Shown in pieces: positions 51,303-62,619 of a stretch of 64,000 nt of DNA. Source of the DNA: Nibricoccus aquaticus (GTDB lineage: Bacteria; Verrucomicrobiota; Verrucomicrobiia; Opitutales; Opitutaceae); contig NZ_CP023344.1 in assembly GCF_002310495.1 (NCBI RefSeq), positions 4,419,501-4,483,500 on the forward strand. The letters are read 5' to 3'. A model generated the notes under the pieces. It worked only from the letters and a program-made list of their open reading frames with translations, searched no databases and was not told the DNA's origin. The number at the start of each line of letters is the position of its first letter. The first letter of the stretch is position 1. The position numbers and the translations under genes are program-made.

Positions 51303-51908
51303 ATGTTCACAGGTATCGTCGAAGAAACCGGCCGTGTGATCTCCTTTAATCAGGAGAAGGCGGCGTGGCGTTTGAGAATCGCCGCGCGCGTGGCGTTGGA
51401 GGGCGTGGCGTTGGGCGATAGTATCGCGATCAATGGGTGCTGTCTCACGGTGGTGCAATTTGACGCGACGCAGATGGAGTTCGACGTGCTCGAGGAGACG
51501 AAGCGGTTGACGAGCATTTCGGTGCTCGCGGCGGGATCTCCAGTGAACCTGGAGCGCAGTCTGCGTTTTGATGGGAAGATCGGCGGACATTTTGTCACGG
51601 GGCACATCGATGGGCTCGGCGTGATCGAGGTTTTTGAGCAACGCGGAGCGGATCATTTTCTGCGCGTGCGCACGCAGCCGGGTGGGGGACGGCACATCGT
51701 TCACAAGGGAAGCATCGCGATCGATGGGATCTCGCTGACGGTTGCGGAAGTGGAGGGCGACAGTTTCGCGGTGTGGCTGATTCCGCACACGGTCGCGTTT
51801 ACTAATCTGCACACCAAGCGCGCGGGCGATCCGGTGAACTTGGAATTCGACTTGCTGGGCAAGTATGTCGAGAAGCTGCTCGCTCACCCTCAGCCACGTA
51901 ACGCCTGA
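51303..51908 (+). CDS. ribE: Riboflavin synthase, alpha subunit
   Basis: A 201-residue enzyme that dismutates two molecules of 6,7-dimethyl-8-ribityllumazine to riboflavin. It has the tandem lumazine-binding repeats: the start MFTGIVEETG, GDSIAINGCCLTV with the conserved Cys pair, then GGHFVTGHIDG in the second repeat, and SIAIDGISLTVAEVEGDSFA and FTNLHTKRAGDPVNLEFDLLGKY. ATG 51303 is the universal family start. No FMN riboswitch-like sequence was recognised in the 220 bases upstream. It is followed at seven bases by the uracil-DNA glycosylase gene. Confidence 0.95.
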   Translation: MFTGIVEETGRVISFNQEKAAWRLRIAARVALEGVALGDSIAINGCCLTVVQFDATQMEFDVLEETKRLTSISVLAAGSPVNLERSLRFDGKIGGHFVTGHIDGLGVIEVFEQRGADHFLRVRTQPGGGRHIVHKGSIAIDGISLTVAEVEGDSFAVWLIPHTVAFTNLHTKRAGDPVNLEFDLLGKYVEKLLAHPQPRNA

Positions 51909-51914
51909 CCTCCC

Positions 51915-52913
51915 ATGCGCGCCGCGCTCACCGCTCTGTCTGATGAATTGAAGCGCCTGCGGGCTGGCGGCGTGAAAACCGTATCGGTCTCCGATCAGGC
52001 GCTGGCGGGTTTGCGGAAAATCGTCGCGGCGAGGGCAGGGCAGAGTGGTGGGAACGTGGCGACAACTTCGACAGCGAGCGGGACGGCGATGACGGACGCG
52101 CGAAAGGGCGTTTTGGCTCCTGGAGGGGCAGCGCCTTCGCCGGTGGAAGGCCGGGCGGGTATCTCGGTTTCAGCAGCTGCGGCCGCAACAAGCGGGCTGG
52201 CGTCACAGCCTGCGGCGACGACTGCTGGTGCGACTAAATTACCGCCGCCTCCTGTGGTGTCGTTGCCCCCTGGAGACAAGCAGACGCGTTGGGATGCGTT
52301 GCTCGCCATGATTAGGAGCGATTCGGTCTGCGTGCAGCATCTGCGGCCTGGCAAAAAAGTGGTGCTGGGTGTGGGCAGCCTCGATGCGAAGATTTTCTTC
52401 TGCGGCGAAGCGCCGGGCGCGGAAGAGGAGATCCAGGGCGAGCCGTTTGTCGGCCCGGCCGGCCAGCTCCTAACTAAGATGATTCAAGGGATGGGGCTGA
52501 AGCGCAGCGACGTTTACATCGGCAACATCATGAACTGGCGTCCGGATCTGCCGACGGTGCCGGGACAGGCGCAGATGGGCAATCGGCCGCCGACCGAGGA
52601 GGAGATCACGTATTGCCTGCCTTATCTGCGCGCGCAGCTGGAGATCGTGAATCCCGATCTGATCGTAGCCTTGGGCTCGACTGCGGCGCAGGGACTTTTT
52701 GGCTACGGCAGTTTCAAGACGCTGGGAGAAATCCGCGGCAACTGGAAACCGTTTGCCGAAAAGCCGGTCATGGTGACGTACCATCCGTCGTACATCCTCC
52801 GCAATCCCACGAACCGCTCGAAGCGGGCTATTTGGGAAGATCTTCTGAAGGTCATGCAGCGCGCCGCTCTTCCGATCTCGGACAAACAAAAATCCTTTTT
52901 CCTGGATAAATGA
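51915..52913 (+). CDS. Family 4-like uracil-DNA glycosylase with altered Fe-S cysteine positions
   Basis: A 332-residue protein of the uracil-DNA glycosylase family 4/5 group (SPO1 polymerase-like). Motif A GEAPGAEEE is at residues 164-172, with GEPFVGPAGQLLTKM following, and motif B YHPSYILRN has His290. About 85 N-terminal residues (40-125) are Ala/Ser/Thr/Pro-rich and probably disordered. Of the four cluster cysteines expected for family 4, only Cys139 and Cys234 are aligned; the second position is His142, and the third appears to be Trp208. A 4Fe-4S cluster is thus doubtful. It overlaps opgG as ATGA. Confidence 0.88.
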   Translation: MRAALTALSDELKRLRAGGVKTVSVSDQALAGLRKIVAARAGQSGGNVATTSTASGTAMTDARKGVLAPGGAAPSPVEGRAGISVSAAAAATSGLASQPAATTAGATKLPPPPVVSLPPGDKQTRWDALLAMIRSDSVCVQHLRPGKKVVLGVGSLDAKIFFCGEAPGAEEEIQGEPFVGPAGQLLTKMIQGMGLKRSDVYIGNIMNWRPDLPTVPGQAQMGNRPPTEEEITYCLPYLRAQLEIVNPDLIVALGSTAAQGLFGYGSFKTLGEIRGNWKPFAEKPVMVTYHPSYILRNPTNRSKRAIWEDLLKVMQRAALPISDKQKSFFLDK

Positions 52914-54439
52914 AACGACTCCTGACTGCCGCCACGTTCCTCGCCTCATTCGCCGGTGTCTTCGCCTCGAATAGCGACGACATGCCCTTCGACTTCGAGG
53001 TGCTGCAATATCGCGCCAAGGCATTGGCCTCAAAGCCCTACGCCACGCATGAAAGCCGCGTGCCGGACTCGTTGCGCAATCTGACGTACGATCAGTACCG
53101 CGACATCCGCTTCGAGCCCAACCGCGCGTGGTGGATGCGGGAGCGCCTGCCATTTCAGCTCCAGTTTTTTCATCCTGGTTTCATCTACAACAAGACGGTG
53201 CAGCTCTCGACGATCGAGCCGGATGGGAAAGAGAGTCCGGTCGAATTCTCCACGAAGCTTTTTTCATATGGAAAAAACACCGATCTGGGCCGTGTGCCCG
53301 GCGATGTGGGCTTCACCGGATTCCGGATACACTACGCTCTGAATAATCCGGCCTATCTTGACGAACTGGCAGTCTTCCAGGGGGCGAGCTACTTTCGCGC
53401 GCTCGGGCAGAAGATGCGTTACGGACTCTCCGCGCGCGGCCTCGCGCTCAACACCGCCGAGCCGGGTGGCGAGGAGTTCCCGATCTTTGAGGAGTTCTGG
53501 GTAAAGAGGCCCGCTGAAGACTCCAAAGACGTGGTTGTTTACGCGCTGCTCGACAGCCCGAGTGTGGCCGGTGCCTATCGCCTCACGATCGCGCCCGGCG
53601 CCTCAACGGTGATGGAGGTGAAAGCCGCTCTGTATTTGCGTGAGAGCGCCAATGTGAAGACCCTGGGGCTTGCTCCGCTGACGAGCATGTTCTGGTTCGG
53701 TGAAAATTCTTCGTCACGTGAAGGCGACCTGCGGCCGGAGGTTCACGACTCCGATGGAATTTTAATGGAGCGCGGCACGGGGGAATGGGTGTGGCGGCCG
53801 TTGACCAATCCTGGTGCGGTCCGTGTCGCTGCTTTCAGCGATGAAAACCCCAAAGGCTTCGGCCTAGTGCAGCGCGACCGTGCATTTTCTAACTACGAAG
53901 ATATGGAGGCAGCTTATCACCTCCGGCCGAGCGCCTGGGTGGAGCCGATTGGCAAATGGGGCCGTGGATCTGTGCGCTTGGTCGAGCTGCCGACGCCCGA
54001 TGAAACCAACGACAACATCGTCGCGTTTTGGACACCGGAGGCGCTACCGCCTGCAGGCAAGCCGTTGGTATTTGAATACAAGCTTCACTGGTTTATGGAA
54101 AAACAGGGAGGCGCCAAGGGGCCGCCCGCTGGCTTCACGTCGGCTACCAGGCAGGGCTTTTCCAAGACGCACGAACCGGAGCTGCGCCGCTTCTGGGTAG
54201 ATTTTGACGGCGCTTACCTGCAGGGGGCTGGCAGCCCCAAGATCGAGGCTGTCGTGACGGTGGGCGCAGGCGCCGAGCTCGTGCATCAGGATGTCCAGAA
54301 AAACCAATACAACGGCACGTGGCGCGTGGCATTTTCGATCAAGCCCGATGGCTCTGGAAAGCCTGTGGAACTCCGTTGCTTCCTAAAACGGGAGCCCCAT
54401 ATCCTGACAGAAACATGGAGTTACCTCTGGAATCCGTAG
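52910..54439 (+). CDS. opgG: Periplasmic glucan biosynthesis protein OpgG/OpgD
   Basis: A periplasmic protein needed for osmoregulated glucan branching or release. The 509-residue chain opens with a signal peptide (KRLLTAATFLASFAGVFA) and the family start FDFEVLQYRAKALASKPY, followed by LTYDQYRDIRFEPNRAWW. The central domain has SYFRALGQKMRYGLSARGLA and FPIFEEFWVKRP. The C-terminal half shows TSMFWFGENSS, GEWVWRPLTNP, GFGLVQRDRAFSNYED and the Y-x-x-R-P-S-x-W-V-E-P patch (YHLRPSAWVEP). The start is set by ATGA overlap with the UDG gene, and it overlaps the next gene by 25 bases. Confidence 0.95.
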   Translation: MKRLLTAATFLASFAGVFASNSDDMPFDFEVLQYRAKALASKPYATHESRVPDSLRNLTYDQYRDIRFEPNRAWWMRERLPFQLQFFHPGFIYNKTVQLSTIEPDGKESPVEFSTKLFSYGKNTDLGRVPGDVGFTGFRIHYALNNPAYLDELAVFQGASYFRALGQKMRYGLSARGLALNTAEPGGEEFPIFEEFWVKRPAEDSKDVVVYALLDSPSVAGAYRLTIAPGASTVMEVKAALYLRESANVKTLGLAPLTSMFWFGENSSSREGDLRPEVHDSDGILMERGTGEWVWRPLTNPGAVRVAAFSDENPKGFGLVQRDRAFSNYEDMEAAYHLRPSAWVEPIGKWGRGSVRLVELPTPDETNDNIVAFWTPEALPPAGKPLVFEYKLHWFMEKQGGAKGPPAGFTSATRQGFSKTHEPELRRFWVDFDGAYLQGAGSPKIEAVVTVGAGAELVHQDVQKNQYNGTWRVAFSIKPDGSGKPVELRCFLKREPHILTETWSYLWNP

Positions 54440-59100: not shown

Positions 59101-62100
59101 ATGCCCACTTCTATGCGCACCGAATCTAGCACGGTTTCGACTGATCTTCGCGACGCCATCAACCTTCGTCTGGCTCTTTTTGCCGGCGATGGCTCGATTG
59201 CCCTCGGGACTGAATTTGAATCGTTGACGCATCCGCTTGTCGCCCGATTCCACGAAATTTCCCGTCAGTTAAAAAATCCTCTCTGCCCGGCGGACCATCG
59301 CATCCAAATGTGGCTGGATCATTACCTCGCCGCTTCAGGTGGTGCGCCCCGACTTCCCACTCACACACTTGTGCTCGATCGACCCGGACTTGCGCGAGCC
59401 CTCTCGCTGCCTGCCGATGCCGACGAGCATTCCTCGCCGCTGCTTAAGAGCTACCGTGTGCGGCAGGGCGTGCTGCATAATCCCGCCAACGACCGGCGCA
59501 CCACTCAGGGTGTTTTTCATATCGCCGAAGGCGGGCTCCCCATCCCCGATGATAAACTGGCCGTGCCTGCAGCCACCTACGGAAAACTGCTGTCACGCGC
59601 CTTTGAGGCCTCAGCGGAATCGATGCGCCTTCCCTACACACAAGCACAGGCCCGTCCCGCTGAGTGCTTTGTCTCGTTATTGATGCGGCCCCTGCTCTGC
59701 CCTGCAGTCCCCGGATTCATAGATGAAAAACGCATCGAGATCAGATTCTTCGCCCCAGGCTCTCTCGTCAGCAATCTGGACTTTGTCGAATCCATCTTCG
59801 GAAACGCCGGAGATCCGTATCTGCCCGTCAACGACGCGGGCCTCGATATTGATCACTGGACCGGCCATACTGGTTGCGTCATTCTCGCTCCGCACCTGAC
59901 GACTGTGACGAAAGAAAGCGTCGGCCTTCCTCGTTGGGATCACGCCACTCTTCGTCAGCAGCGAGACGGCATGTGCTGGAAAGACTCCACTGAACTCTAC
60001 AACAACGGTTCTGCGTTCAAGATCACTGCGCGTGATGAACATGGAGTCATGGTCACTATCATCGCCGACAACTATTACGGCTACTGCAAGAAAGAGGTGA
60101 AGACGCAGATCAGCTACGCGACTAATCTCTATGGCCTAACCGAAGAGGAACATGCCGGCGGCGCACTCGTGTATCCCAGCTACGAACTAGAAAACGAATT
60201 CACCGGATACTCCGAACCGGAAAAATACTCGCTCGCAACTGTGCTGAAATCCTGGGGCGGCGAGTTCTCGATCCAACCCGCAGGGCATGCGATCCATGAC
60301 ACGCTTCCACAGATCATCCTGGTGCCAGAACGCACAACTTTCAGCCTGCGAAAACAATTGGTCAGCTGGCTAGATTCCTCCGGTCAGACGAGGTCGATCA
60401 AACTCCTCGCAGAGAAAACCTACGTGCGCCCCAGTGGTTATCGCGTGCATATGGAGCAAGTCCCAGGCGAACGCTCCGCCTGGCGGCTCGTCGGTACGTC
60501 CGCCGAGGGCACGCTCTGCCATAAGCCCTGCACCGTCTCAGGCGGCGGAAAATCCGAAATCTCCAAAGCCATAGATTACGCCATCCTGCCTGGTCACGTC
60601 TTCATAGCGGACCTCGACCGTGATTTGGACCAGATTGACGGCATTCTTTCGACGGATACATCGCGTCGTTTTCGAGATCCAGTCCGCAACAATCAGGATC
60701 TCCGCCCATTCCTCAGTCCCGCGCGCTCACTCGGCAGCGTCATCAAGCTCCTGACTCCCTCACGTCGCGAATATTCAGATGAGTACAACGCCTGGCTGCT
60801 CTCCATACCTCAGCACATCAAAGAACTGCTCTTCGTCCTTAAACGATTCTACAAGCCGGAGTGGGGTGCCTCCTGGCGCAGTCACTTCACCGTGGACACG
60901 ATCAATGGCCGTCCTGGCTACGAGCTGAAGCTCGATGGCGCACGCGTGGTCAATCACAGCCTTCGCGTCGGCTTCAGGGAAGACGGCTCATGGCGTGTCT
61001 TCGGTTTGCGCAGCGATTTTCATCCCGCCGCCAAAGTCCAGATGGAAGACGACATCACCGCCTCCGTCGTCGTCCCGCGCGCTAGCCTTCCCCCCGCATG
61101 GCTGCCTGCGCGTCGCACCGATCATGCAGGCGGCGTCATGCCTGTTCCGCCCCAGGGTATCTCCCTCAAGTTCGTCCAGAACTGCGAAACCCGTCTGTTC
61201 CAGCGTCCGGACGATGCCATCCACCGCGGTTACGACCGCCAGGCGGAGGCTGATATGGCCACCCCCGGCACGTTCCTTTCCAACTACGAACCCTTGAGCG
61301 CTGACGATGCGAAAACCCTGCTCGACGATGCCGTTGGCTACCGCGCCTACTCCGCGCCGATGCGCGAGCTCATCGGCGCATCGGCCTCCGAACCGGCCTC
61401 GCCCCAATACTTCGTTTCTTCGGCGCATCCGCGTATCGTTGACGGAAAGCCCACAAAAAACCCGCGCTACCTGCAACTCCGCCCCGACATCGCCGACCCC
61501 GTCGGCACCTCCCTCGCCGCCCTGTGCGCCCGCCTTCACCGTAACCTAGGCCCTCTCGATCCACTGTATTCGCCGGTTAACGTCGTCGTTCCCGGACGCC
61601 GCAACAATCCTCCAGAAAGCCGGATTCGCTCCCTCGCCGTCTTTAACCCCATTCACTACCTTGATCTGCCCGAGCTCTTCATGGAGTTCATCAGCAGCAT
61701 GACCGGGAAATCGCCCTCCACCACCGGCGCCGGTTCCGAAGGCGCCCTGACCAAAGGCCCGTTCAACGCCCTGTCTCCCATCATCGACCTGAACGCCACC
61801 CTCGTCTCGCTTATTCTCACCGGCCATGACGGATTTCTCTCCGCCGCCGGCTACGTCGGTCCTCACGTCCGGGTCGATCACGACGTCTCCCTCCTGATCC
61901 CGGAGGTTTTTTCGCGCATGACTCCGGTCGAGCGCGACGCCCGCACCTTGATCGCCGACGGCTGCCTGGAACCCTGCGAAGACTTCACGCACAAAGGCAG
62001 ACGCATCCTCGCCAGCCGCCTCGGCTACCGCATCACCACCCGCTTCGTGCGCATGTACTTCGGCCGCGTGTTTAATCACCCGCATGCCGTCTTCACGGAT

Positions 62101-62619
62101 GAGATGCTTCGGCCCGAACTCCAGGACGCGGATACATTTGCCGACGGGATGGACAACATCGTCACCACCCATCAACGCGTCGCCGAAAGCTATTTCGCCG
62201 ACCGCAGTATCGAACTCGCCTGCCCGCCACTTCGCGCACTGCTCCACATCATGGCTCACGGCGGATGCGACGGCGAAACCCTCGCCTCTCCCGGCGTGCG
62301 CCAGCTCTTCACTCGCGACTCCCTGCTTGCCAGCGACTGGTACGCGCGACGTCTGGATGCCCGGCAGCAGGTCGATGTCCGCCTCTGGACAAGGCATGAA
62401 CGCTACCTCCAGGACATCCTGGATCGCCCGCGTTACCTCACTCCCGTGGAACACAAATCCATCGATGACCGCCTCGCCCGCGCACGGGAAAAACTCACCC
62501 TTGTGCAGTCGCCCGCGTACCGCACGTCCTTGCACGGCACGCTCGGTGCCCAGCCGCTCGACGGGCTGCTCTCCGGCAAAACCAGCGCATCTCCCGATCA
62601 CACCGCACACAGCAATTAA
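59101..62619 (+). CDS. Large protein resembling PPi-dependent phosphoenolpyruvate carboxykinase
   Basis: A 1172-residue soluble protein. Motifs recalling the PPi-type PEP carboxykinase family are DNYYGYCKKEVKTQISYATN (residues ~323-342), TEEEHAGGALVYPSYELENE next to it, and CHKPCTVSGGGKSEISKAID with Gly/Lys/Ser near 481-485 in place of a P-loop. The chain length and these blocks match that family (about 1100-1200 residues), which reversibly makes PEP from oxaloacetate with pyrophosphate. A possible catalytic Lys/His set is not assigned. It is divergent from malQ; the CoA-transferase downstream fits a succinate route. ATG 59101, or ATG 59113, is the start. Alternative: an uncharacterised relative without that activity. 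Confidence 0.65.
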   Translation: MPTSMRTESSTVSTDLRDAINLRLALFAGDGSIALGTEFESLTHPLVARFHEISRQLKNPLCPADHRIQMWLDHYLAASGGAPRLPTHTLVLDRPGLARALSLPADADEHSSPLLKSYRVRQGVLHNPANDRRTTQGVFHIAEGGLPIPDDKLAVPAATYGKLLSRAFEASAESMRLPYTQAQARPAECFVSLLMRPLLCPAVPGFIDEKRIEIRFFAPGSLVSNLDFVESIFGNAGDPYLPVNDAGLDIDHWTGHTGCVILAPHLTTVTKESVGLPRWDHATLRQQRDGMCWKDSTELYNNGSAFKITARDEHGVMVTIIADNYYGYCKKEVKTQISYATNLYGLTEEEHAGGALVYPSYELENEFTGYSEPEKYSLATVLKSWGGEFSIQPAGHAIHDTLPQIILVPERTTFSLRKQLVSWLDSSGQTRSIKLLAEKTYVRPSGYRVHMEQVPGERSAWRLVGTSAEGTLCHKPCTVSGGGKSEISKAIDYAILPGHVFIADLDRDLDQIDGILSTDTSRRFRDPVRNNQDLRPFLSPARSLGSVIKLLTPSRREYSDEYNAWLLSIPQHIKELLFVLKRFYKPEWGASWRSHFTVDTINGRPGYELKLDGARVVNHSLRVGFREDGSWRVFGLRSDFHPAAKVQMEDDITASVVVPRASLPPAWLPARRTDHAGGVMPVPPQGISLKFVQNCETRLFQRPDDAIHRGYDRQAEADMATPGTFLSNYEPLSADDAKTLLDDAVGYRAYSAPMRELIGASASEPASPQYFVSSAHPRIVDGKPTKNPRYLQLRPDIADPVGTSLAALCARLHRNLGPLDPLYSPVNVVVPGRRNNPPESRIRSLAVFNPIHYLDLPELFMEFISSMTGKSPSTTGAGSEGALTKGPFNALSPIIDLNATLVSLILTGHDGFLSAAGYVGPHVRVDHDVSLLIPEVFSRMTPVERDARTLIADGCLEPCEDFTHKGRRILASRLGYRITTRFVRMYFGRVFNHPHAVFTDEMLRPELQDADTFADGMDNIVTTHQRVAESYFADRSIELACPPLRALLHIMAHGGCDGETLASPGVRQLFTRDSLLASDWYARRLDARQQVDVRLWTRHERYLQDILDRPRYLTPVEHKSIDDRLARAREKLTLVQSPAYRTSLHGTLGAQPLDGLLSGKTSASPDHTAHSN

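Follow-up and report, generated by a model that had tools for sequence, protein, structure and literature searches.

The maintenance of structure, redox sensing and damage search have all been proposed as roles of the iron-sulfur cluster in DNA glycosylases, and the matter is a standing question. Family 4 uracil-DNA glycosylases (UDGs) are characterised by four cysteines for a [4Fe-4S] cluster, for which a stabilising role has been proposed (PMC5295032). The same report describes Cys-to-Ser changes in the family 4 enzymes of Pyrococcus and Archaeoglobus, which led to the loss of approximately 40% of the activity (PMC5295032); the cluster is thus dispensable for the chemistry of the family. The catalytic residues and their roles were listed for UDGa of Thermus thermophilus (Tth; PMC5387724).

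Here, we analysed a UDG gene in a stretch of 64,000 nucleotides from Nibricoccus aquaticus (Verrucomicrobiota, Opitutales; NZ_CP023344.1, positions 4,419,501 to 4,483,500), which is called the window below. Instead of the four cysteines of the family, its product carries Asp136, Cys139, Trp208 and Cys234 at the cluster sites. We consider it rather probable (roughly 70%) that this protein represents an active family 4 UDG, which lost the [4Fe-4S] cluster and in which protein packing takes over the structural job of the cluster.

Gene, fold and cluster sites of the window protein

The reading frame given in the first-pass annotation was borne out; it lies on the forward strand, starts with ATG and encodes 332 residues (Table 1). 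The protein scored 156.1 bits against the NCBIfam model of family 4 UDGs (TIGR00758, cut-off 125.3) and 132.3 bits against PF03167, and it stayed below the cut-off of the archaeal equivalog model. Other families fit less well. The score of 135.6 bits against the UdgX model TIGR03914 is below its cut-off of 189.95, GEAPG is found instead of GEQPG, and a KRRIH-like loop is absent. Motif A is also distinct from GLAPA, the corresponding motif reported for family 5 UDGs (UDGb; PMC10359453), and the family 5 structure 2D3Y matched at an E value of 1.3e-4 only. The motifs GQDPY and HPSPL of family 1 Ung are absent. An AlphaFold2 model, built from a 70-row alignment, reached block pLDDT values of 97-99 across residues 111-320, save 88 and 94 at residues 211-230, and its best match among solved structures is the UDG 1vk2 of Thermotoga maritima (Z 27.6, rmsd 1.6 Å over 187 residues, 39% identity). 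By all tested features except the four cysteines, the open reading frame encodes a real family 4 UDG.

Table 1. Features of the UDG locus, given in window positions.
Feature	Position	Strand	Remarks
Riboflavin synthase (RibE-like) gene, directly upstream	51306..51908	+	PF00677, two stretches; 6 bases from its stop to the UDG start
Family 4 uracil-DNA glycosylase gene	51915..52913	+	332 aa; UDG domain at approximately residues 120-332; TIGR00758, PF03167
N-terminal conserved helical segment, residues 1-44	51915..52046	+	Modelled helices 2-17 and 27-44; blastp
Low-complexity linker, residues 45-102	52047..52220	+	Ala/Pro/Thr/Gly/Ser-rich; pLDDT under 50
Cluster site 1, codon of Asp136 (Cys in the family)	52320..52322	+	Alignments; residue directly before modelled helix 137-141
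Cluster site 2, codon of Cys139, retained	52329..52331	+	Alignments; C in 132/144
Motif A GEAPGAEEE, residues 164-172	52404..52430	+	Tth counterparts of E165 and E171 are E41 and E47
Cluster site 3, codon of Trp208, aromatic replacing Cys	52536..52538	+	Aromatic in 139/140 Opitutales rows from whole genomes
Enlarged loop between sites 3 and 4, residues 211-222	52545..52580	+	10 residues shorter in the T. maritima and Tth enzymes
Cluster site 4, codon of Cys234, retained	52614..52616	+	C in 141/144
Motif B HPSYILRN, residues 290-297	52782..52805	+	H290 corresponds to Tth H155

In the window (51306-54439) and at homologous loci, the UDG gene follows that for riboflavin synthase and precedes the periplasmic glucan gene mdoG in a head-to-tail arrangement; in the window it overlaps the start of mdoG by four bases. 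Riboflavin synthase and UDG are likely encoded on one transcript; a scan of the region for promoters and terminators gave nothing useful. Among 76 Opitutales loci, many of them with short flanks, which makes the counts lower bounds, at least 46 had a riboflavin synthase match and at least 20 an mdoG match as neighbour. Further downstream, the window contains an open reading frame of 1172 residues (59101-62619, forward strand) that matched no Pfam family at E 0.001.

The N-terminus had been described as long, disordered and unusual. It is indeed long, and the model supports disorder in the linker (Table 1), but its length is hardly unusual: the median distance from the first Met to the start of motif A is 119 residues for 70 four-cysteine relatives and 139 for 156 Opitutales open reading frames, which are rough values, since first Met positions were taken in stop-to-stop frames. 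The first 48 residues found a blastp match (E up to 1) in 114 of 165 Opitutales rows, in a file from which the window row itself was absent.

The cluster sites were assigned by phmmer against the T. maritima structures 1L9G/1VK2 and by a 70-row profile aligned with 1UI0 (T. thermophilus), 1VK2 and 4ZBX (S. tokodaii). Both alignments agree, and the CxxC pair of the family corresponds to Asp136-x-x-Cys139. They confirm the first-pass count of two missing cluster cysteines, with Cys139 and Cys234 left and Trp208 at site 3. His142 had also been named as a site residue, which proved to be a misreading of the CxxC slot shifted by one ligand; the true site 1 is Asp136. As a ligand, His142 was rejected, because it lies three residues past the CxxC pair and varies from sequence to sequence (H 100, N 17, Q 13, E 8, R 5 and K 1 among 144 Opitutales sequences that have all six catalytic residues and are called intact below). 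An extra cysteine, C163, adjoins motif A. It occurs in 52 of the 58 intact sequences with C136 versus 52 of 86 without and is therefore no stand-in when C136 is lost, hence it was rejected as substitute ligand as well. Other cysteines filling the cluster sites, which would have spoken against the initial interpretation, were looked for in both alignments and in the 144 intact sequences and were not found; the comparison thus supports a loss of the cluster. The residue preceding site 3 is Asn in 133 of the 144 intact rows, and Lys or Arg in four-cysteine rows. The longer loop between sites 3 and 4 is shared by two class-mates with four cysteines (L241 and L242), hence its enlargement partly predates the cysteine loss.

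Spread of the cysteine loss over Opitutales

Of 132 Opitutales genomes, 125 gave a match to protein P0001, and in at least two of the 125 (G037, G364) the sole match is a different, GQAPG-type protein. For the main count we used 140 rows from whole-genome searches, which were not selected by the Trp motif and represent the best-matching family 4 gene per genome; a fragment from G400 and most matches weaker than approximately 1e-40 were left out. Not a single one of these rows keeps four cysteines: three remain in 59, two in 64, one in 16 and none in one. Site 3 is occupied by W in 132 rows, F in 5, Y in 2 and S in 1, and site 1 by C in 69, D in 48, N in 8, S in 7, H in 6 and A in 1, with one gap. 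Sites 2 and 4 are C in 121 and 131 rows, respectively. Judged from these sequences, the loss of cluster cysteines is a lineage trait of the order as sampled and not local to the window gene.

For the pooled counts, 189 loci including that of the window were reduced to 175 after deduplication, 165 at 90% identity and finally the 144 intact sequences. In the pooled counts only, 80 loci were included that had been found by two patterns, one of which is NIMNWRP, so that this part is biased to the Trp motif. The 70 four-cysteine relatives comprise 30 rows from a search of the phylum, 32 from pattern-found loci and 8 others; the 30 phylum rows were the top scorers of their search and hence lean to canonical sequences.

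In the order, a further twelve sequences were examined that are second copies or weak matches. Four are of the UdgX type (L368, L372, L373, L374). Three second copies from two genomes (L369-L371) are degenerate family 4 sequences, with VYEAPS or VYETPS for GEAPG and HAS or HTS for HPS; their catalytic Asn is gone, and they are still open frames next to an intact copy. The remaining five (L375-L379), from five genomes, belong to a different GQAPG-type protein of the UDG superfamily with four cysteines, and we thus rejected the idea that the order is wholly devoid of four-cysteine genes of this superfamily.

Catalytic residues and the fate of the cluster

Motif A and motif B, which had been called intact, are so, beginning at G164 and H290, respectively. 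Furthermore, all six catalytic residues of Tth UDGa (E41, E47, F54, N80, N89 and H155) are present in the window protein, as E165, E171, F178, N204, N223 and H290. By homology to the Tth enzyme, the uracil would be held between E165/A166, E171, F178 and N204, while H290 would stabilise the leaving uracilate and N223 would position the water. An enzyme of this kind should be able to excise uracil from DNA in both double- and single-stranded form.

The six residues are complete in 144 of the 165 Opitutales sequences (non-redundant at 90%) and in all 70 four-cysteine relatives. At least one is missing in the other 21 members of the order, and several are missing in the C-T-W-N rows (the letters give sites 1 to 4) and in L265 and L364. 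A search of the window genome with PF03167 found, apart from the window gene, only one family 1 Ung (L002; GQDPY, HPSPLS), and uracil repair is thus probably redundant in this bacterium. Both observations would be compatible with a degenerate or repurposed protein without glycosylase activity in a genome that relies on Ung. We give this explanation hardly any chance, since the window protein retains all six catalytic residues together with an intact motif B and intact conserved columns, and the gene occurs commonly across Opitutales. The C-T-W-N copies (L264, L360, L361, L363; order family f15), in which N204 is changed to P and N223 to K, are apparently inactive descendants kept as open frames.

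The fate of the cluster can be assessed from the retention patterns among the 144 intact sequences. C136 is kept in 58 and replaced in 86, exclusively by D (62), H (9), N (8) or S (7). In 76 of these 86 sequences C139 and C234 are both kept, which exceeds the expectation under no constraint and speaks against wholly free sites; in the remaining ten, C139 is also lost (L, F or V) and C234 is kept in every case. Among the 58 sequences with C136 beside an aromatic site 3, C139 is kept in 56 and C234 in 55, and the three rows that lost C234 (L021, L082, L296) indicate that this cysteine is not indispensable for packing either. Some of the relatives with three cysteines could still bind something.

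The joint retention of C139 and C234 and the limited choice at site 1, where D and H are metal-binding residues, might point to a different metalloprotein, in which one metal ion (Zn or Fe) is bound by Asp136, Cys139 and Cys234, with Trp208 as a lid. Such a site appears unlikely to us, because the ten intact sequences without C139 keep C234, and the cysteine at site 4 is also retained in class-mates whose site 2 is A or V. Moreover, metals are poorly bound by N and S. The residues D, N, S, H and C typically act as helix N-caps, and in the model a helix starts at residue 137 right after site 1, which explains the narrow choice at this site without a metal. The persistence of Cys234 in the absence of C136 and C139 speaks for packing rather than ligation. 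The first-pass annotation had left the choice between another metal and none; its view that a [4Fe-4S] cluster is unlikely agrees with the comparison, and the choice leans to none, as Cys234 persists in ten of ten sequences lacking both partners.

A labile or site-differentiated iron-sulfur cluster could also be assumed on the remaining ligands, i.e. three cysteines in many relatives and two cysteines plus Asp in the window protein. There are precedents for unusual ligand sets: UdgX is reported as a 4Fe-4S protein (PMC10359453) although its third site aligns with His, and the cluster of NsrR is described as held by three Cys and one Asp (PMC5411485). For the window protein, we regard a retained cluster as very improbable, because Trp is no ligand and bulky at a ligand site, two cysteines and one Asp leave three ligands at best, and related N-L-W-C, S-F-W-C and W-A-F-C sequences have the intact catalytic set. 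Five class-mates from the genome families f19 and f23 (L245, L251 and L256 with W-A-F-C, L259 with N-V-Y-C, L267 with N-A-F-C) have one cysteine and all six catalytic residues, hence the catalytic set survives in proteins presumably unable to hold the cluster. In L270, a second copy in a class-mate genome of f19/f23, catalytic residues are lost too.

In the preferred explanation, an active enzyme that has shed its cluster, Trp208 stands in for the third ligand and would probably fill the cluster cavity, Asp136 takes the place of the first ligand and would probably cap helix 137-141, and Cys139 and Cys234 would remain as ordinary side chains. An overall failure of cluster assembly is an unlikely cause, because the window genome encodes at least one HhH-GPD protein (L366) with the classical C-x6-C-x2-C-x5-C motif. 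A second HhH-GPD protein of this genome (L365, on C1 near 2685722), which we take to be endonuclease III-like, has C-terminal cysteines in the order C-x4-C-x4-C-x2-C, unlike L366, and possibly represents another altered cluster site.

Within the order, site 2 is also lost and the catalytic set kept in several members with N-L-W-C, S-L-W-C or S-F-W-C (L322, L323, L330, L342, L343, L345, L098, L100, L106). Where the genome size is known, they mostly come from genomes of approximately 0.8-1.1 Mb, and two of L098, L100 and L106 are from Puniceicoccales.

Origins of the aromatic site 3 and comparison with known systems

The number of origins was estimated on a careful tree of 70 rows, from which UdgX-type rows as well as the cluster-site and loop columns were removed. 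On this tree, Opitutales form one clade (100/99) that joins with the class-mates (95/85) inside four-cysteine Verrucomicrobiota, and five alphaproteobacterial and two phage rows form a separate clade (98/82). The fewest changes needed were two at site 3, nine at site 1, three at site 2 and two at site 4, counts that by themselves cannot separate gain from loss. A single origin of the aromatic site 3 was rejected (p-AU 0.0058), with an unsettled bootstrap and long viral rows (L144, L149, L152). It was not rejected on a quick tree of 119 rows, four of them of the UdgX type (p-AU 0.81); the constrained tree was 33.8 log units better there, so the free search was poor. Hence, the aromatic residue likely arose twice, on the Opitutales side and in Alphaproteobacteria. 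The order of losses that fits best begins with site 3, followed by site 1 many times, and sites 2 and 4 sporadically. A more far-reaching scenario, for and against which we see the odds as even, is that cellular family 4 UDGs shed the cluster at least twice, in the ancestor of Opitutales and their verrucomicrobial class-mates and in Alphaproteobacteria, each time with an aromatic residue at the third site, and that a stepwise series from C-C-C-C over C-C-W-C, D-C-W-C and N-L-W-C to W-A-F-C survives today.

If true, this surviving series represents a natural experiment on the purpose of the cluster in DNA repair. The stepwise loss of ligands with the catalytic residues kept offers natural enzymes that carry four, three, two or one of the ligands for comparison. 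In practice, the cysteines of proteins that pass TIGR00758 should be checked before they are annotated as iron-sulfur proteins. PDB searches with the window protein, the 70-row profile and an Azospirillum protein did not turn up any structure of a cellular enzyme of the Trp type; the matches, shared by all three queries, were canonical, UdgX and family 5 entries plus one phage polymerase, save that family 5 was not hit with the Azospirillum protein at that cut-off. In titles and abstract openings of the open-access literature we found no description of family 4 UDGs lacking the cluster; most subscription papers are outside this scope, and prior notice elsewhere is possible.

The canonical UDGa enzymes of T. 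maritima (TM0511, 1VK2), T. thermophilus (1UI0) and S. tokodaii (4ZBX) share motifs A and B and the six catalytic residues with the window protein, which differs from them by Asp at site 1, Trp at site 3, the longer loop between sites 3 and 4 and the long N-terminal leader. A similar pattern of sites is seen in alphaproteobacterial UDGs, sampled as ten rows from plasmid records (Azospirillum, Methylobacterium, Ruegeria, Tritonibacter, Shinella and Sinorhizobium), some of which are closely related to one another. Eight read F-C-W-C and two F-C-W-L; they share Trp at site 3 (10/10), Cys at site 2 (10/10) and Cys at site 4 (8/10) with the window protein, whereas they differ by Phe at site 1, a Pro preceding the Trp (PWRPP) and the lack of the loop insertion. 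An Asp at their site 1, as read from FDGC, was rejected, since the alignment gives Phe at this site and Asp one residue on. The catalytic set is complete in eight of the ten rows, and motif A is degenerate in the Shinella and Sinorhizobium rows. Two phage records from freshwater and gut (L225, MW462191.1; L239, MT836093.1) encode UDGs of the same F-C-W-C type with the full catalytic set; relatives of the L225 protein were not found in the scanned viral contigs.

Viral UDG domains resemble the window protein in that 13 of the 26 with a non-Cys site 3 carry W, Y or F. The sample comprises 80 loci with 64 distinct domains, distant rows in which the alignment of the N-terminal sites is unsure. Four cysteines were counted in 35 domains, three in 2, two in 4, one in 4 and none in 19, and site 3 is C in 38, Y in 6, W in 5, H in 4, I in 3, V in 3, F in 2, E in 2 and T in 1. 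These domains are distant from the window protein (best match approximately 40% identity), have mostly lost the N-terminal CxxC stretch entirely and often carry H, I, V, E or T at site 3. They are often part of long frames (viral contigs L159-L221), some of which are annotated as DNA polymerase and many of which lack all four cluster cysteines. According to these alignments, the loss of cluster ligands is recurrent and wider than the order, with an aromatic residue as a frequent, not the sole, replacement at site 3.

UdgX of M. smegmatis (6AIL) has the same fold as the window protein and likewise a residue other than Cys at site 3, which is His in the profile alignment; its GEQPG motif and KRRIH loop have no counterpart in the window protein. 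UdgX-type rows (L237, L257, L266, L268, L269) were excluded from the aromatic group, and their apparent C-C-W-C pattern in MAFFT was rejected as a gap artefact, as HMMER places His at site 3. Finally, members without an iron-sulfur cluster are reported for MutY (PMC11078426); this "clusterless" MutY is, like the window protein, part of a glycosylase family in which the cluster is absent in some members, but it belongs to another protein family of the helix-hairpin-helix type.
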